Assembly: GCA_031292555.1 (NCBI GenBank) | Contig: JARLGV010000022.1 | Location: 1-64,000 of the forward strand | Length of the DNA stretch: 64,000 nucleotides | Direction of reading: 5' to 3' | From: Fimbriimonas sp. | Lineage (GTDB): Bacteria; Armatimonadota; Fimbriimonadia; Fimbriimonadales; Fimbriimonadaceae | Shown here: in pieces, positions 1-8,564 of the stretch | Layout: every line of letters starts with the position of its first letter | Position numbering within the stretch: position 1 is the first letter of the stretch | Position numbers and translations under genes: made by a program | The notes under the pieces: generated by a model | What the model saw: the letters and a program-made list of their open reading frames with translations, nothing else | The model's database searches: none | What the model was told of the DNA's origin: nothing

Positions 1-2
1 CC

Positions 3-1232
3 CTTAAGTACGGCGTCGACCAATGCGTCGGCGACACGCTGAGCCCGGGCGGGATCATGTACGCCCAGCGAGGGATTCCGGCGCTTTTGGGGTTCTGCAA
101 GGACATCCGCGAGGTCGCGGATCCAAATTGCGTCTTCCTCAACTACTCGAATCCGATGGCCATGCTGACATGGGCCTGCAACAAGTACGGAGGGGTCAAG
201 ACGATCGGTTTGTGCCACGGAGTTCAGGGCGGACACTGGCAGATCGCATCCTGCATCGAGGGATGGGCGCGCAAGCACGGGCATATCGGTCCCGAAGACA
301 AGGTGGTCAAGAAGGAAGTCGACATCGTCTGCGCCGGCATCAACCATCAAACATGGTACGTCCAGGTCCGCTGGCGGGGGATGGACATGATTCCCCATTT
401 GCTCGAAGCTTTCGAGATGCATCCCGAATTCAGCCATACCGAGAAGGTCCGCATCGACATGCTGCGCCGCTTCGGTTACTATTCGACCGAATCGAACGGC
501 CACTTGAGCGAGTATGTGCCGTGGTATCGCAAGCGTCCGAGTGAGATCATGGATTGGATCGACCTGGGGGTTTGGATCAACGGCGAAACCGGCGGGTATC
601 TGCGGGTCTGCAAGGAGGGCAGGAGCTGGTTCGAGCACGACTTCCCGAACTGGATGGAGGCGGCGCCGAATGAGTTCAGCCCCGAGAAGCGGGGCGAGGA
701 GCACGGCAGCTATATCATCGAGTCGCTGGAGACTGGCCGGGTCTACCGGGGCCACTTCAACGTGGTGAACAACGGGATCATCACGAACCTGCCCAACGAC
801 GCGATCATCGAGGCCCCGGGCTATGTGGATCGCAACGGCATCTCGATGCCGGTCGTCGGAGACCTGCCGCTGGGCTGTGCGGCAGTGTGCAACGCGTCGA
901 TCTCGGTTCAGCGCTTGGGCGTCGAGGCCGCCGTGCACGGCGATCCGGAACTGCTCAAACAGGCGATGATGATGGACCCGCTGACCGGCGCCGTCTGCAA
1001 CCCTCCCGAGATCTGGCAGATGACCGACGAGATGCTCGTCGCCGGCGAGGAGTGGCTTCCCCAATACGGAGCTGCGATCGCGAAGGCCAAACAAACTCTC
1101 GCCGAGGGCCCCCTGGTTCCCACCCAGGAATACGCAGGAGCCGCCCGCCTGCCGGTGAAGACGGTCGAGGAAATGCAAGCCAAAGCCGACGAAAACCGCA
1201 AACGAGCCAACGAGTCCGACAAGGCGAAGTGA
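3..1232 (+). CDS. Family GH4 alpha-glycosidase (alpha-glucosidase/galactosidase-like), 5' truncated
   Basis: Hydrolyses alpha-glycosides by the NAD+/Mn2+-dependent redox-elimination mechanism of glycoside hydrolase family 4, in the cytoplasm. The reading frame is open to the window edge, so the N-terminal Rossmann glycine motif is missing. About 409 residues remain. Visible family blocks are GDTLSPGGI, NYSNPMAML (substrate/NAD region), GLCHGVQGG, where the Cys-His pair belongs to the metal site, and CAGINHQTWYV. These match the alpha-glucosidase/alpha-galactosidase/galacturonidase branch (AglA/MelA/LplD) better than the 6-phospho-beta-glucosidases. The C-terminus is Lys/Glu rich. The next gene, an SDR oxidoreductase, starts 54 bp later on the same strand, so co-transcription is possible. 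The exact sugar cannot be read from the sequence. Confidence 0.85.
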   Translation, partial: LKYGVDQCVGDTLSPGGIMYAQRGIPALLGFCKDIREVADPNCVFLNYSNPMAMLTWACNKYGGVKTIGLCHGVQGGHWQIASCIEGWARKHGHIGPEDKVVKKEVDIVCAGINHQTWYVQVRWRGMDMIPHLLEAFEMHPEFSHTEKVRIDMLRRFGYYSTESNGHLSEYVPWYRKRPSEIMDWIDLGVWINGETGGYLRVCKEGRSWFEHDFPNWMEAAPNEFSPEKRGEEHGSYIIESLETGRVYRGHFNVVNNGIITNLPNDAIIEAPGYVDRNGISMPVVGDLPLGCAAVCNASISVQRLGVEAAVHGDPELLKQAMMMDPLTGAVCNPPEIWQMTDEMLVAGEEWLPQYGAAIAKAKQTLAEGPLVPTQEYAGAARLPVKTVEEMQAKADENRKRANESDKAK

Positions 1233-1286
1233 AGGAGGCGTCGCGGCGACTGCGACGGTCACCAACCCGTATCTTGAGGTGGACAC

Positions 1287-2033
1287 ATGAACAAAGGGCA
1301 GAACTTAACGAGACGAGTCGCCTTGGTCACCGGCGCCAACAAGGGGATCGGATTCGAGGTGGCTCGCCAGCTAGCGCAACGTGGAATGACGGTCTTCCTA
1401 GGTGCGCGCGATGCGGCTCGTGGCGGGGCGGCGGCCAAAGCTCTCGCGGCGGGGGACCTCGACGTGCGTCCGCTGATCCTGGATCTTGCTCGGCCCGAAA
1501 CGATGCAGGTGGCTGCCGAAGCGATCGACGGCGAATTTCAGCGTCTCGATATCCTTGTGAACAACGCGGGGGTAAACGACCCTGAGGACGGTTCTCCGGG
1601 TACGGTCGACCTCGATGCCGTCCGACGGGTGTTCGAGACGAACTTCTTCGGGACGGTCTTGGTGACTCAGATCATGCTCCCGCTGATTCGAAAATCGGCA
1701 TCGGGAAGGATCGTCAACGTTTCGAGCGGCCTCGGATCGCTTTCCTCGATGTCCGCCGCAGAAGGCATATCGTCCGACTTTGCTCAACTCCTCGGCTACA
1801 GCTCTTCGAAGGCCGCTCTAAACATGTTCACCATCCACCTGGCTCGTGAACTGAAGGGAACAGGGATCTTGGTCAACGCCGCTGCCCCGGGTTTCACGGC
1901 GACGGATATGAACAACTTTCGAGGACATCAGACGGTCGAAGAAGGAGCAAGGGTTCCGGTCCAACTCGCGCTGCTTCCAAACGACGGTCCAACCGGTGGT
2001 TACTTCGACAAGAACGGCCCTAAGACCTTGTAG
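1287..2033 (+). CDS. Short-chain dehydrogenase/reductase (carbonyl-reductase-like)
   Basis: Classical SDR of 248 residues, the usual length for the family. It has the cofactor motif TGANKGIG at residues 15-22, NNAG at 92-95, the catalytic serine in NVSSG near 147, and YSSSK at 171-175, which supplies the Tyr and Lys of the active site. An Arg at 41 right after beta-strand 2 (LGARD) suggests NADPH preference. The TGANKGIG variant and the run GGYFDKNG near the C-terminus resemble plant and bacterial carbonyl-reductase-like SDRs. The substrate is unknown. It follows the GH4 gene by 54 bp, which could reflect sugar metabolism, but SDRs are too common for that to be strong evidence. Confidence 0.85.
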   Translation: MNKGQNLTRRVALVTGANKGIGFEVARQLAQRGMTVFLGARDAARGGAAAKALAAGDLDVRPLILDLARPETMQVAAEAIDGEFQRLDILVNNAGVNDPEDGSPGTVDLDAVRRVFETNFFGTVLVTQIMLPLIRKSASGRIVNVSSGLGSLSSMSAAEGISSDFAQLLGYSSSKAALNMFTIHLARELKGTGILVNAAAPGFTATDMNNFRGHQTVEEGARVPVQLALLPNDGPTGGYFDKNGPKTL

Positions 2034-2085
2034 CAAAACGTCGGGCAAGCCGACGCCTACGCGCTGCGTCGCACTTTGCTCCGCG

Positions 2086-2118
2086 CAATACTCCATCACT
2101 CCGCTACTCCAGTTCCTC
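2086..2118 (-). repeat. Degenerate GGAGT-type octamer repeat
   Basis: Read on the minus strand this stretch is GGAGTAGC, GGAGTGAT, GGAGTATTG in a row. The same 8-9 bp unit family recurs in two other intergenic gaps, at 6543-6558 and 53043-53121. It sits just after the SDR gene and before the operator of the next gene. No coding function is seen. Confidence 0.5.
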
Positions 2119-2127
2119 GGGATTGTG

Positions 2128-2157
2128 ATGAGTATTGTGTACTCATTGAATACTCAT
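2128..2157. promoter_or_regulatory. Three-half-site operator over the start of the RHH gene
   Basis: ATGAGTATT (2128-2136) and AATACTCAT (2149-2157) form a perfect 9-bp inverted repeat. A third half-site TACTCAT lies at 2140-2146, in direct orientation with 2151-2157 and 11 bp apart. Ribbon-helix-helix repressors commonly bind such short half-sites spaced about one helical turn. The last half-site includes the ATG at 2156, so bound protein would block transcription start or early elongation. Autoregulation by the downstream product is an inference. Confidence 0.6.
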
Positions 2158-2485
2158 GGTGACGGACAAGAAAGCCTATACGAAGCGCCAGAACTTCAAT
2201 GTCTCCCCGGAGCAGGAAGCCCAGATCGAATGGTTGAAGGACACGCTCGACGTTTCGTCGGCAAAGGACGCGGTGATCCGGTCGGTGCAAGTTATGTCGA
2301 TGCTCGTCCGCGAGGCGAAGGCAGGCAACACGATGTACTTACAGTCTCAGGCAGGCGACATGAAGCTGGTCGTCATACCCGAACTGACCCAATTCCTGGG
2401 ATGGAGATTTCTGGTCGAGCGCAAGCATTCGTGGCGCAAGCAGCTCTACGTGAAGGGCCGGCGATTGCTGGCCTCTACGATATAG
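2156..2485 (+). CDS. Ribbon-helix-helix / DUF433-like antitoxin-type protein, N-terminal part (ends at an in-frame amber)
   Basis: This 109-residue frame begins with a ribbon-helix-helix-like segment: KRQNFNVSPEQEAQIEWL forms strand then helix, followed by a second helix through residue 60. It continues with NTMYLQSQAGDMKLVVIPEL and RKQLYVKGRRLLAST. The order 'NTMYL...VVIPEL...W+QLY+KGR' is, from memory, that of a larger family common in cyanobacteria and Chloroflexi, whose C-terminal third is a DUF433-like helical segment. Here a TAG at 2483-2485 ends the frame just before that segment, and the missing piece follows in the same frame (next entry). Likely a DNA-binding regulator or antitoxin. 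No toxin gene is next to it. The operator at 2128-2157 covers its start. Confidence 0.6.
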   Translation: MVTDKKAYTKRQNFNVSPEQEAQIEWLKDTLDVSSAKDAVIRSVQVMSMLVREAKAGNTMYLQSQAGDMKLVVIPELTQFLGWRFLVERKHSWRKQLYVKGRRLLASTI

Positions 2486-2668
2486 CGGGGTATGACCGCG
2501 AACGGAATGACCGAAGAGGAGGCTGCCGACAACTGGGAGTTGCCGCTGGAGGCGATTCGTGAGGCTATCGCGTACTGCGACCACAACAAGGAGCTGATTG
2601 CGATGGAGGCCGACGAGGAGCGCGCCCAGTTACAGTCGATGGGAGTCGATCTTGCCCTCCGAGACTAG
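2486..2668 (+). pseudogene. C-terminal DUF433-like part of the same gene, cut off by amber codon 2483-2485
   Basis: Directly after TAG 2483-2485 and in the same frame as 2156, codons read RGMTANGMTEEEAADNWELP and then an Ile/Ala/Glu-rich helix to a stop at 2666-2668. An ATG at 2492 could give a free 58-residue peptide, but no Shine-Dalgarno sequence precedes it. In the remembered family alignment, the stretch 'KGR-x(4-9)-M-x-ANGMTxEEAA' is continuous and the interrupted position is often Trp or Val, so TGG to TAG is the simplest lesion. The stop overlaps the stop of the convergent GH78 gene: both use the shared CTAG at 2665-2668. Alternatives are a sequencing error, readthrough, or two separate products. 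Confidence 0.6.
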
Positions 2669-5505
2669 GACCGAGTCAGGGTTACGGTTGGGCCCGGAAC
2701 TAGGATGACGCCTTTGGGCGCGATTGCCTTGGCGGAGATGCCCTGCTCGGACCGGACCCATTGCACGTGAATCGGTCCCAAGCGGTGCGGAAGGGTCCCC
2801 TCGACGCGGTCATGACGCGAATCGACAGGATCGAGCAGATAGGTGTCCGGTTCGCCGGGTTTGGCCAGTCGCAGGCCAAGGACATACTCTGTCGCGTAGA
2901 TCGACGGAGCACCGCTCCAACTGTGGCAGCAACTGCCGCTGCCGTTGTCGGCGTTCTTGAACGTCTCGGGAAGCGTCGGATGTTCCAAGCGCATGATGAA
3001 TCCGTAATGCTCGTCGATGAGCAAGTCGGCCAAGTCCTCACGCCCATGCATGGCAAGTGCCGGCAGTAGGAAGAAAAAGAAGAACAGCTCGAGGTAACTC
3101 TCCGTATTCGAGGAGGACAATCCCTTCTTCAGATTTTCACGCAGAATGGGCTCGACGTAGGCAAGGATCCGGTTCGGGTCCCCAACGCCAAACCTCAAGG
3201 CCAGGACGTTGGCGTGAATGGCAGCCGTGTGGGCGCCAATGCTCGCGTCGAATCGGCCCTCGCGATCATTCCAGACATGGGACATCAACGCGGACTCAAG
3301 ATTCGAGGCTTCCTCGAAAAAGCGAGCGGCTTCGGTTGGATGGCCCAGTCCGGCAGCAAGTTCGGCAGCCGCACGAAGAGCCCCGAACCGGAGGCTGTTG
3401 AGCGCCGCATTGCCTGTCCCGTGTCGTTCGGCCTCGCTCAAGCCCCAGTCGAGAAAGATACCGGGCGAATCCCACAGACCGTCGGCCCCGATCGTCCATG
3501 CGGGACTATCTAGGATTCCTTTGATCAACGCCCATTGACGACCGGCAAATACCAAGTCACCGGTATGGGCCCAAATGTCGCGAACGCCCAGAATCCAGTA
3601 GAGTGAGAAGTCGAACGATGGTCCCATGCCCCAGGACGGCGCACAGCCAGGAAGCAAGCCGTTCGGCTGTTTCGCCAACCCAAACGTATGAAACACGCGT
3701 CGGGCGGTTCGTGTATCGGCAGTGAGAAGCCGGTTGAGGTTGTAATCCACCAGACAATCACCGATGTAGCTTCCGCGTTCACGCCAAGGGCAATCGGAAA
3801 AAGCCTCGTCGGTGGAGGCCTGTAGAGTGCGGACTCCCGCCCGCCATGCCCAATCGAGCACGGCATCGCCTGATTTGAACGCCCCCTCGACTTTGTTGTA
3901 TACCGTTCGCCTTCGTATCCCGACGTCGTGGACGGCAAGCGTAGCCGGCTCCGCTCCGGCGGGAGCGCGGAGAACCAGCTCGAGATAGATGCCACCCCGG
4001 GGGTTTAGCACGTCGATTCGCTGTCGGCCGCCTTGGAGCACGAAACGGTCGGCAGCGTCGGTGAAAGGATTCGAGTGGAACAGGTTCACGCATCCGTCGG
4101 CGCGCTTCCAGTCATCGTAGGCGATATCGAGGATGCTGCCAGCCGGCGCCTCGACGTCGACAAACGGTTGTCCGTAAAACTCGTCCTCAAAATCGAAGGA
4201 CCAGATCGCGGCCGATGACGTTCGAAATCGAATCCTGGCCAAGTCGCCTAGCGGACGGTCCCGTACGACTTCGGCTGGGTTGGGAGTGTCCCAAGCTATC
4301 CGCTTTGCGGGGGTAATTCTGCTCAAGTCCGAGGATTCGAGCTTCCAGCCGTCGGGAAGAACATATGCACCCAGATTCGCGGGCCTATCAGGCGTCCTTC
4401 GTTCTGGGAGTGGTCCGGAGAACCCGAACGTCTCCCGGCACTCCAGATTGGGAAGCGCGTGAAGGGTCGCACCGGAATCCACTGGGAGCCCGAGGACGAA
4501 CGGCCACTGGTCGAGCAGAATCTCGTAGTTGCCGCCCAAGAAGTTCCAGCCCTCTTTGAGCGTGACATGGCTGACGCCGTGATTCCCAAGAAGCCCTGGG
4601 TAAGTGATCTCGACCGGATCGCCGTTCAGCTTCGATTCCGTCCAGAAGATCTCCATCTCGACCGCCTGCTCTCTGGGCGAGTGAATCCAGGTGACGAACG
4701 AAAGAAACTCCTTGCCTGCCGATAGAGGGAGCGAGCGATGCAGTTGAACTCCCCAACGCCGGCTATCTGCTGTTGGGCCCGTCGCGATGATCGTTGGCGG
4801 ACGCACAATGACGTAGTCCGGATAGGGCGCCGTGCGCGGCAGTGGTAGGTTCCAAGGCGTGGATTCTGGGGGGAGCGCAACCACCGGATGACTGGCGAGC
4901 TTGGCGAGTTCGTCGGCCAGTATCCGCGTATCGCAGATCTCGCATGGGTTCTGTGCAAAGCTGAAATAGGGCGCCTGAGGATCCCACGCTTCGTGGATTG
5001 TCGCCAACCATTCGCCAGGCGTTGCAAAGTCGATGATTCCGTCGCCGATTCCACCGGCGGCGATAAAGCCGGGCGACCCGTCCGGCATGGACTGATAGGA
5101 CGAGCACCCGTAATAGTTCACTTCGACTCGGACTGTGTTCTCTCCGCGTCGCAGGTGGGGCTCCAATTCGTGAGTGTCGTATTCAGGATGCGCCGTCACG
5201 AACCTTCCAGGACCGTATGCGACGAATGCTCCGTTCACGAAGAGTCTGTAGCGTGTGTCGGCGAACAAGTGCAGTTGTGCCTGCTCAACCTCGACGAGAG
5301 CGAACCGCCTTTCAAATGACACGAATTGGTTTCGAGAAGGAGGCAGGTCGCGCGCCCAAGAAAAGGTTGACTTCGAAAAGTCGGAGTCGGTTCGATCGAG
5401 CGGCTTCGCCATGAGTTCAGTTCTGTCCGAACTCACCTTACCAGCGAATTCGCCCTTCACAACGGAGTCCGGTCTGATGGCGTTCCTCTCGACGGTTTGA
5501 ACCAT
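2665..5505 (-). CDS. Alpha-L-rhamnosidase-like glycoside hydrolase (GH78)
   Basis: A 946-residue protein with the GH78 layout. An N-terminal beta-sandwich (about 40-300) carries LFADTRYRLFVNG and VEVNYYG, typical of the Bac_rhamnosid_N domain. A second beta-sandwich follows around 370-540. An (alpha/alpha)6 barrel then begins near SDCPWRERGSYIGD (about residue 600); in the family this loop holds acidic catalytic residues. A C-terminal beta domain ends the protein. Its reaction would be release of terminal alpha-L-rhamnose from pectin side chains or glycosides. No convincing signal peptide is seen. An internal Met at 5412 is an alternative start that would remove a poorly conserved leader. The gene is divergent from the GNAT gene, and its stop overlaps that of the upstream convergent gene. 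Confidence 0.8.
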   Translation of the reverse strand: MVQTVERNAIRPDSVVKGEFAGKVSSDRTELMAKPLDRTDSDFSKSTFSWARDLPPSRNQFVSFERRFALVEVEQAQLHLFADTRYRLFVNGAFVAYGPGRFVTAHPEYDTHELEPHLRRGENTVRVEVNYYGCSSYQSMPDGSPGFIAAGGIGDGIIDFATPGEWLATIHEAWDPQAPYFSFAQNPCEICDTRILADELAKLASHPVVALPPESTPWNLPLPRTAPYPDYVIVRPPTIIATGPTADSRRWGVQLHRSLPLSAGKEFLSFVTWIHSPREQAVEMEIFWTESKLNGDPVEITYPGLLGNHGVSHVTLKEGWNFLGGNYEILLDQWPFVLGLPVDSGATLHALPNLECRETFGFSGPLPERRTPDRPANLGAYVLPDGWKLESSDLSRITPAKRIAWDTPNPAEVVRDRPLGDLARIRFRTSSAAIWSFDFEDEFYGQPFVDVEAPAGSILDIAYDDWKRADGCVNLFHSNPFTDAADRFVLQGGRQRIDVLNPRGGIYLELVLRAPAGAEPATLAVHDVGIRRRTVYNKVEGAFKSGDAVLDWAWRAGVRTLQASTDEAFSDCPWRERGSYIGDCLVDYNLNRLLTADTRTARRVFHTFGLAKQPNGLLPGCAPSWGMGPSFDFSLYWILGVRDIWAHTGDLVFAGRQWALIKGILDSPAWTIGADGLWDSPGIFLDWGLSEAERHGTGNAALNSLRFGALRAAAELAAGLGHPTEAARFFEEASNLESALMSHVWNDREGRFDASIGAHTAAIHANVLALRFGVGDPNRILAYVEPILRENLKKGLSSSNTESYLELFFFFFLLPALAMHGREDLADLLIDEHYGFIMRLEHPTLPETFKNADNGSGSCCHSWSGAPSIYATEYVLGLRLAKPGEPDTYLLDPVDSRHDRVEGTLPHRLGPIHVQWVRSEQGISAKAIAPKGVILVPGPTVTLTRS

Positions 5506-5527
5506 ATGGCGGAACGCGCAACTCCAT

Positions 5528-5557
5528 CAAGGTTCTTCGAACCTTGCCGACTATGCT
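5528..5557 (+). promoter_or_regulatory. GNAT promoter: operator palindrome plus -10 box
   Basis: CAAGGTTC (5528-5535), a 3-nt centre, and GAACCTTG (5539-5546) form a perfect palindrome. TATGCT at 5552-5557 is a likely -10 box 7 nt before ATG 5565. The palindrome covers the -35/spacer zone, as expected for a repressor site. On the opposite strand the same 59-bp gap serves the GH78 gene, with CATAGT at 5555-5550 as a possible -10. Confidence 0.5.
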
Positions 5558-5564
5558 AGGGGAC

Positions 5565-6044
5565 ATGACCATACGACTGGCGACAGAAACCGATATCGAC
5601 GGCCTCAATCGCCTCTTTTTCGAAGCGGATTCCTTGCACCACGGCGGCGAGCCGAGGGTGTTTGGAGGGCAAGAACATTGGGGTCGAAGCCGAGAGTTTC
5701 TTGGTCAAATCCTGGCGGATCCCAACCAGGTCATTCTGATTGCGGTCGAAGGCGAGAATGTAACGGGCCTTGTCCACGCCGTTAGCCAGATTCGACCCGA
5801 ATTGGGGGTGCTTAACGAACGGCGTGTACTGGTGGTGGACGCTCTGATCGTCGGGGAGGAGTTCCAGCGCAGAGGAATCGGTACGAGGCTAGCGGAAGCC
5901 GTCTACAAGTGGGGCACGGCTCGTGGTCTATCGATCGTCGAATTGACCGTGTGGTCATTCAACGAAAGCGCGATCCGGTTCTATGAACGAATGGGCTTCT
6001 CGGTTGCCAGCTTCCGAATGCGCCGGACCCTCGTCCAGCCTTAA
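5565..6044 (+). CDS. GNAT family N-acetyltransferase
   Basis: Transfers an acetyl group from acetyl-CoA to an unknown amine; cytoplasmic. The protein is 159 residues from ATG 5565 and starts MTIRLATETDIDGL, the usual first strand and helix of GNAT proteins. VDALIVGEEFQRRGIGTRL contains the acetyl-CoA pyrophosphate loop (Q/RxxGxG/A), and ELTVWSFNESAIRFYERMGF is motif B. I chose ATG 5565 over TTG 5544 and ATG 5553 because a -10 hexamer ends 8 bases upstream, giving a leaderless transcript, and because the extra residues add nothing conserved. It stands alone between a divergent GH78 gene and a convergent small secreted protein gene. Confidence 0.85.
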   Translation: MTIRLATETDIDGLNRLFFEADSLHHGGEPRVFGGQEHWGRSREFLGQILADPNQVILIAVEGENVTGLVHAVSQIRPELGVLNERRVLVVDALIVGEEFQRRGIGTRLAEAVYKWGTARGLSIVELTVWSFNESAIRFYERMGFSVASFRMRRTLVQP

Positions 6045-6091
6045 GCAGCCACAGAGAATAGGCTGCATCCCGGTCCGTTGCCGGTTCGCCA

Positions 6092-6475
6092 CTATAGGAG
6101 GTTGGCTCCGCCCCAGATGAAGATGTTGTCGGCATCTACGTCGGGATGGGCCTTGATGTACGACTGGCGCAGTGAGCGAATGTACTTGCGATACGTGGAT
6201 TTCTGAACCGGTGACATCGCGCCCATGAAGTCGTGGGTGTACTTCTCGTTGAGGGCGTCGCGTTTGATGAGGTAGTCCGCCGGGTGATCGTGGCGAAGCT
6301 TCGTCAACTGAGATCCGAACTTGGCGTCGATCTTGTGCATGGCCTCGGCAACCGACTTGGTGGCATGAAGCGGCTTGTAGACGTCCTCTGTCGTGCGCAT
6401 GACCTCATTGGCATCCTCCGCGAGCGCCAGAACAAACGAACCGACGAGGACGAGACATAGGGCCAACCTTCGCAT
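6092..6475 (-). CDS. Small secreted protein of unknown function
   Basis: About 127 residues from the Met at 6475: MRRLALCLVLVGSFVLALAE is a clear Sec signal peptide (Arg pair, hydrophobic core, ALA before the cut). The mature part is helical and rich in Lys, His and Asp, with KYTHDFMGAMSPVQKSTYRK near its end, and shows no cysteine or known domain. The open frame runs upstream to 6676, but that section is Pro/Ser rich and would bury the signal peptide, so it was excluded. TAATTT at 6488-6483 lies 7 nt before the ATG and may be a leaderless -10. Function unrecognised. Confidence 0.65.
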   Translation of the reverse strand: MRRLALCLVLVGSFVLALAEDANEVMRTTEDVYKPLHATKSVAEAMHKIDAKFGSQLTKLRHDHPADYLIKRDALNEKYTHDFMGAMSPVQKSTYRKYIRSLRQSYIKAHPDVDADNIFIWGGANLL

Positions 6476-6542
6476 GGACTTGAAATTACCTGAGAGGCGG
6501 GGAGCGGGGGGTGGGTCGCGGGTGGTGGAGAAGTGTAGGAAC

Positions 6543-6558
6543 GGAGTATTGGAGTATT
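6543..6558 (+). repeat. GGAGTATT tandem pair
   Basis: Two exact copies of GGAGTATT in the 216-bp gap between the secreted protein gene and the GH10 gene. Same octamer family as at 2086-2118 and 53043-53121. The rest of the gap is G-rich and holds no gene that I can support. Confidence 0.5.
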
Positions 6559-6691
6559 GCCGGAACCGAATGGTTTGCTGCGGGCAAACGCTGCTTGGCG
6601 TGGGCGGGAAGATCTCGGACACGGAAGTGACGGATAGAGGCGGGGAGCTATAGGGACGCTTTGGGCCGCTTCGCACTATCGAACCGCACCC

Positions 6692-8473
6692 TTACTTCAG
6701 AAGCACGCGATAGCGGTCTACGCCGGCGGCCAAAGACACGGTTCCGGACGACGAAGCGGAGGTTAGGCGATAGTCGCCTAGGAAGCCTCGGAAGTTGACC
6801 CGGCCGAGATCGTCGGTGGCCAAGACGAGGTCGGTGGTCCAGTAGGGAACCCCGGCTAGGTTCCAGTTTTTGACTCCGGTCATCTGCTGCCAAATCATTC
6901 CGGTCGGCGTGATGTTCCAGTTCGCGTCATACATCGCGGCGTCGTTGACCCACATCATCTGCGACCAGAAGCCCCAGCAGTTGAATGTCGTGGCCTCGGG
7001 GAAGCCGAACATCATCCACAGCGCGTCTTGGAGCACTTGGGGCGCCTGGCTGGTGAACCCACCCCCGATGCCGAACTCGGTGAGCGAGATAGGAAGCTGG
7101 AGAGTTCCAAGGTTGGCGAGGGTCTGATAGATCCGCACCGGGTCGTGGTCGATCCCACCGATGTTGTAATACTGCACCCCGACGCCCAGCATCGGCTGAT
7201 TCGAGGTTGGCACCCCGTTGTTCAAGACCGAATGGATGAAGTCGAGATACCAGCCGCCGTACATATCCGAGTTGGAGTTGAAGACGGAAAACTCGTTGAA
7301 ATACACATGCGCGGAACTTCCAGAGGCACGGGCCGCTTCGATACAGGCGTTATAGATAGCCGCGATCCCGGCATAGCCGTAGATGTTTAGAAACACCGGC
7401 TGGTGTCCGGCCGAGGCTTCGTTAATGCCGTCAACTTCCTGAAACTTTCGCGACCGCTGCCGAACCACATAGCCGATTCGGTAGAGGATCTCGTCCCATA
7501 GGGTCGTCTTGGCCTGGGATGCGGCAACCGGATCCGAACCGAGCGCCGAGTTCTCCAGATTGACCGCCCAGTCTGGTTGCTGAGCGCCCCACAGCACGTT
7601 GTGATGGCGGACCCGCATGTCGTGGCGCTGGGCAAAATCCAGGATGGCGTCGACATAGCGCATCGTGGGATGCCACCGGGTCGGCTCGGTATAAGCCCAC
7701 TTCCCGGCGTTCTCCTCCTCGATCAGGTTGAAATTCTCGAGGATCTTGGCTTGAAAGATGAACCAGACGCCTTGTTCGTAGGGATTCGGCCACATCGCGT
7801 CCCAGTAGCCGCCAACCCCGGGCACCGCGGTCCCGAAGTTGAAGGCATGGCGTGCCAGATGCACATGAACGGACTGCCCTTTACCGAATGGTCTCCCGGA
7901 TGGGTTCAGTACTGTGATAAACGCGTCTTGCTTGCGGTCGTTCTCGATCGTCGTGTCGGCTGCTGCGAACACCGTTTGCTTGAGGTCGGACGAATTCGTG
8001 GGATTGACAAGGCGAACCGCCGCATCGGGCGACCCGGAAACCGTCAGACTCCTGAGAAGCAGGTTCCGGTCCTGGCTCGTCGTCGAATCGTACGCGTCGT
8101 TCAGGAACTCGATGCGTACCAGCGTCGTGCCGGCCGGAACCGTCATCCGCGCCGTATAGGTCTTGAACGCTGCCCCGACTACGTTAAACTCAGATCGGTT
8201 CTTGCCGATGTGGATGCCCATCCTGGGCCACATGCCGAACGCCGGTTGGCCGGCCGCTTGAACCTTGAGAGTTACGGTCGAGGTGCGTTGGGAGACCACG
8301 AACGTCCCGATATAGCCGTATCCCCACAGGTTGTAGTCGGCGCCTACCTGCGCGCCGGTGCTCTTGAAGACGAACTGGGAAGCGGGAATCGACGTTTGGG
8401 CCCCCATCGCGAGGGAGCATCCCATCAGACATGCGGCGAATGTCGCGCGCATGGGGAAACCCGTCGTTTCCAT
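6692..8473 (-). CDS. Secreted GH10 endo-1,4-beta-xylanase with N-terminal carbohydrate-binding-like domain
   Basis: 593 residues. The N-terminus has a signal peptide (MRATFAACLMGCSLAMGA from an internal Met at 8452; METTGFP precedes it if 8473 is used). Residues about 25-170 form a beta-rich region with the look of a CBM, ending near SLTVSG. The GH10 barrel follows from about 180: HNVLWGAQQPDW, the acid/base Glu in VDGINEASAG, YFNEFSVFN, and the nucleophile Glu in ISLTEFGIGGG near residue 465. GH10 enzymes cut the xylan backbone with retention. The protein would be exported. It is the first of several plant-polysaccharide enzymes scattered in the window, none clustered in a PUL. It is transcribed away from the carboxyltransferase gene start but lies on the same strand, 91 bp downstream. 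Confidence 0.87.
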   Translation of the reverse strand: METTGFPMRATFAACLMGCSLAMGAQTSIPASQFVFKSTGAQVGADYNLWGYGYIGTFVVSQRTSTVTLKVQAAGQPAFGMWPRMGIHIGKNRSEFNVVGAAFKTYTARMTVPAGTTLVRIEFLNDAYDSTTSQDRNLLLRSLTVSGSPDAAVRLVNPTNSSDLKQTVFAAADTTIENDRKQDAFITVLNPSGRPFGKGQSVHVHLARHAFNFGTAVPGVGGYWDAMWPNPYEQGVWFIFQAKILENFNLIEEENAGKWAYTEPTRWHPTMRYVDAILDFAQRHDMRVRHHNVLWGAQQPDWAVNLENSALGSDPVAASQAKTTLWDEILYRIGYVVRQRSRKFQEVDGINEASAGHQPVFLNIYGYAGIAAIYNACIEAARASGSSAHVYFNEFSVFNSNSDMYGGWYLDFIHSVLNNGVPTSNQPMLGVGVQYYNIGGIDHDPVRIYQTLANLGTLQLPISLTEFGIGGGFTSQAPQVLQDALWMMFGFPEATTFNCWGFWSQMMWVNDAAMYDANWNITPTGMIWQQMTGVKNWNLAGVPYWTTDLVLATDDLGRVNFRGFLGDYRLTSASSSGTVSLAAGVDRYRVLLK

Positions 8474-8564
8474 GCCCAGAGCTTATCCCCGGCCAGCAGT
8501 CATGAAGCCAATTGGTTGACGATGTAATGCAGGGAATGTCGAACTTATCGCACAACAGCGCCGG

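Follow-up and report, generated by a model that had tools for sequence, protein, structure and literature searches.

Pairs of DUF433 and PIN genes have been predicted to be toxin-antitoxin systems (Makarova et al. 2009, PMC2701414). For one such pair, vapBC10 of Synechocystis (ssr2962/slr1767), experiment has established that the COG2442 antitoxin neutralises the PIN toxin, that the two genes form an operon and that the antitoxin binds its own promoter at an inverted repeat (PMC3834315). In the Rv2018–Rv2019 pair of Mycobacterium tuberculosis (5af3) the DUF433 domain is fused to an N-terminal DNA-binding domain, a winged HTH, and adjoins a PIN gene (PMC2701414). Antitoxins are also found on their own: a survey of Klebsiella reported orphan antitoxins to be common (PMC7192599).

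Here we describe a locus at positions 2156–2668 of the window, that is, of the whole 64,000-nucleotide stretch of Fimbriimonas DNA that was analysed. Like the DUF433/COG2442 antitoxins that accompany PIN toxins (PMC2701414), the family to which it belongs has a DUF433 fold (2ga1, Z 8.8) and its intact members pair with a PIN-like DUF5615 gene; unlike them, it carries an additional fused N-terminal head resembling a DNA-binding domain (probably ribbon-helix-helix, RHH), and the window copy itself is broken and toxin-less. With vapBC10 the intact relatives share a COG2442 antitoxin next to a PIN toxin gene, known here from sequence; the Synechocystis antitoxin, however, is described without mention of a fused head, activates its own operon and has a different operator sequence (PMC3834315). 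The architecture of Rv2018 is similar (fold match Z 5.8), although it has a winged HTH where the present family has the RHH-like head. As in orphan antitoxins (PMC7192599), the antitoxin gene remains without its toxin, but in the window it also has a nonsense codon.

The interrupted frame and its relatives

Translation of 2156–2668 (forward strand) reveals a single internal stop, TAG at 2483–2485, preceded by 109 codons and followed by 60 codons and a terminal TAG (2666–2668). The first part (2156–2485) encodes the probable RHH head (approximately residues 10–55), a beta hairpin and the first part of DUF433; the remainder of DUF433 and the C-terminal tail follow in an undamaged frame (2486–2668). 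Both flanks of the internal TAG lie in one frame and align to the same relatives, ungapped at the site, which bears out the initial annotation of a lone in-frame TAG dividing one member of the family; a readthrough product would comprise 170 residues, not the 169 then given. On base composition alone, 60 open codons have a chance of ∼12%, but the tail is about 35–60% identical to relatives and matches DUF433, and is thus not an accidental open frame. A new start at ATG 2492 is improbable by sequence comparison, since this codon aligns with an internal Met of most relatives. A search of the organism's own genome (an assembly of 6.46 Mb in 140 contigs with an estimated contamination of 2.64%) found only the window copy.

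A profile built from three sequences was searched against 291 Armatimonadota genomes and returned eight intact full-length relatives besides the window copy (L043 and L045–L051); the named relatives (GTDB records) are mostly metagenome assemblies from this phylum. At the column occupied by the TAG all eight have Trp, encoded by TGG. A ninth full-length relative, on the mobilizable cyanobacterial plasmid pGLO7428.03 (Gloeocapsa), is 50% identical to the window frame and also has Trp at this column. The matching full-length relatives are single unbroken genes of about 156–173 amino acids, the closest being only about 43–52% identical to the window copy. The window copy breaks two of 18 invariant positions in the head and one of eight in the tail, which a leave-one-out comparison places within the range of the intact relatives. 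With no excess damage on either side the stop looks recent, as had been suggested from the sequence.

Genes normally split at the TAG were considered and rejected: stand-alone DUF433 relatives exist (L004, L005, L053 and L093, the last on a Chondrocystis plasmid), but they start near residue 75–80, at the domain boundary of the fused protein and ∼30 residues before the TAG (residue 110). On the Chondrocystis plasmid (L093, 960–1810) each of the three parts has a gene to itself, the RHH-like head (66 amino acids) preceding DUF433 and DUF5615 being the third, possibly an ancestral or split version of the fused antitoxin. A DUF433-like frame from another family of the phylum also contains an in-frame TAG (L055, 1079–1351) and is probably a second decaying copy. 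No relatives were found in viral contigs and phages, PADLOC gave no match for the locus, and a PDB sequence search returned nothing useful.

The Pfam DUF433 profile (PF04255) matches the window copy with E 2.6e-4 and 21.2 bits, under the cut-off of 23.6, and gives equally weak matches to the relatives or misses them. When the intact relative L079 was modelled with AlphaFold2 (mean pLDDT 77.7), residues 82–152 matched the DUF433 structure 2ga1 with an rmsd of 2.1 over 68 residues, and the second-best match of this domain was the DUF433 part of Rv2018; by this model the C-terminal half belongs to DUF433/COG2442. In the model the Trp that corresponds to the TAG has number 108 and lies within a helix (104–113), the first of the three that make up the DUF433 bundle. 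A separate model of the head shows helices at 14–26 and 32–51 behind a conserved KRQNFNV segment, and its fold matches are weak (Z ≤4.1), RHH antitoxins (TacA1, ParD, AtaR2, MazE, VapB12) being mixed with HU and TCP domains. The DUF433 portion of the original RHH/DUF433-like label is upheld by the modelled fold; an RHH head is plausible from the model, though Pfam finds no RHH match there.

Toxin gene, promoter and operator

In five relatives (L043, L045, L046, L050 and L051) a complete DUF5615-like (PIN-like) open reading frame overlaps the antitoxin stop by 4–23 bases, and a Pfam check of two of these frames for DUF5615 gave E 3.5e-16 and 6.3e-18. The presence of this intact gene directly after the antitoxin points to a family of VapBC-type antitoxins, with toxicity and neutralisation predicted. 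Elsewhere the antitoxin is intact and the toxin is not: ∼24 toxin codons are left in L047, L048 has lost the middle and keeps a C-terminal piece in a different frame, only the first codons survive on the Gloeocapsa plasmid, and in L049 the toxin is absent. The truncated or internally deleted toxins beside intact antitoxins lie at 1701–1775 (L047), 2019–2277 (L048) and 600–690 (L092); counting L049 and the window, the toxin is lost in half of ten full-length family members.

In the window neither the toxin gene nor a remnant of it was found. The place taken in relatives by the DUF5615 gene is occupied by a convergent glycoside hydrolase-like gene (2665–5505, reverse strand; of alpha-L-rhamnosidase type by inspection). 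When the flanking genes were searched in the genus, the hydrolase had distant matches only and the best match of the upstream SDR gene was 60% identical. By inspection, a cluster of carbohydrate-active enzymes (GH4-like, rhamnosidase-like and GH10-like) surrounds the remnant (window 1–8500), and DUF5615 genes elsewhere in the same genome (L008–L011) adjoin other open reading frames, some of them short and DUF433-like. Two genomes of the genus share an SDR gene that is 89% identical (L004, 128–929; L003, 686–1986): beside it one has a full antitoxin-toxin pair, the other an 89-amino-acid DUF433 piece without head, toxin or operator.

Upstream of the gene, all eight relatives have an extended −10 box, TGNTATAYT, which in most of them sits within a palindrome close to GAGTAT-NNN-ATACTC; the family palindrome, GAGTATGGTATACTC, is a candidate operator. 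The corresponding core in the window, GAGTATTGTGTACTC (2130–2144, forward strand), aligns to GAGTATGRTATACTC of the relatives, which contains the extended −10 box, and carries two substitutions at columns invariant in the other eight: G to T at 2136 (the G of the TG motif) and A to G at 2139 (position 2 of the −10 hexamer). Opening of sigma-70 promoters depends more on that second position than on any other base. A change there suggests that transcription is weaker or lost; a consensus promoter scan found no sigma-70 site in 1900–2900. Of 12 promoter-core columns that are otherwise invariant, the window copy breaks two and the others 0–2; since L043 also departs at two columns and yet has an intact antitoxin-toxin pair, the promoter evidence is supportive, not decisive. 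The downstream half-site, ATACTCAT (2150–2157, forward strand), is perfect and overlaps the start ATG with a spacing identical to that in L045. The operator had been called intact from the sequence: this holds for the outer half-sites, the one at the start included, but not for the core.

Preservation of the start codon, half-sites and head invites the idea that the 109-residue head has been kept as a small operator-binding autorepressor for which the toxin-binding tail is dispensable, and orphan antitoxins, common in other bacteria, may be reused (PMC7192599). We consider this very improbable. Operator sites of the GAGTATTGTGTACTC kind occur once in the genome, so that the head would have no target but its own gene; the cut falls inside a DUF433 helix, not at a domain boundary; and the tail, which would be free of selection, is undamaged.

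Decay as the preferred reading

Our preferred reading, to which we assign a probability of roughly 0.83, is that the locus is a recently inactivated orphan antitoxin of a VapBC-like operon, the toxin having been lost and the promoter and antitoxin damaged afterwards. The remnant would derive from a type II operon that pairs a DUF433/COG2442 antitoxin with a DUF5615 (PIN-like) toxin. Where the relatives are intact, the antitoxin is likely to bind the palindromic operator, which overlaps the extended −10 box, and would thereby regulate itself; from its family it is expected to neutralise the PIN-like nuclease, whose gene comes next and overlaps its own. Loss of the toxin gene would have removed selection on the antitoxin, leaving it free to decay, and substitutions in the promoter core and a nonsense codon in place of the invariant Trp would have followed; the order of events, the loss of expression and the functionless state of the 109-residue fragment are all inferred. 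Relatives show the earlier steps, with the toxin truncated (L047, L048 and the Gloeocapsa plasmid) or absent (L049) and the antitoxin intact. Against decay stand the outer operator half-sites, which are retained, and the undamaged protein after the stop, which would also be expected had readthrough kept the function.

Programmed readthrough or amber suppression yielding the full protein is suggested by the frame and conserved residues, which continue beyond the stop, and a bypassed stop had been raised along with a recent one when the sequence was first read. We regard it as so improbable as to be nearly negligible. None of the 45 tRNA genes found in the genome has a CUA anticodon, so the suppressor proposed at that time did not come to light; TAG is a normal stop, ending ordinary genes that include both neighbours, the SDR gene on the upstream side and the hydrolase on the downstream side; that column holds no stop in any full-length relative; the promoter core is altered; and no adjoining toxin is left to neutralise. 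A recoded TAG was likewise rejected: by a crude count TAG terminates 23 of the 49 long open reading frames in the window, and the long open runs after some of these stops resemble either the next gene, lying in frame with the first, or frames on the wrong strand. With the toxin gone and the promoter altered, retained function is unlikely. Only a slim chance remains that the stop is tolerated or used, whether by the head as a stand-alone autorepressor or through low-level readthrough that yields small amounts of the full antitoxin against a horizontally arriving toxin (anti-addiction).

The main alternative to a pseudogene is a sequencing error. If the consensus base were wrong or strains were mixed, the organism would carry an intact gene and the TAG would be a product of assembly or a minority variant. 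This would need only one base (TAG versus TGG) in an otherwise undamaged frame, and the fragmentation and estimated contamination of the assembly lend it some weight; it is nevertheless unlikely, because the loss of the toxin and the changes in the promoter core point to decay independently and are left unexplained by one wrong base.

Ordinary gene decay is thus the most economical reading, and the locus a real but ordinary pseudogene with no bearing on genetic-code recoding. Its relatives delineate a clade of head-fused DUF433 antitoxins that have an operator in common and mostly escape Pfam and NCBIfam. On the preferred reading the locus would be a clean case of toxin-antitoxin decay, the toxin going first and the promoter and antitoxin afterwards, and the window copy beside its relatives would form a graded decay series.
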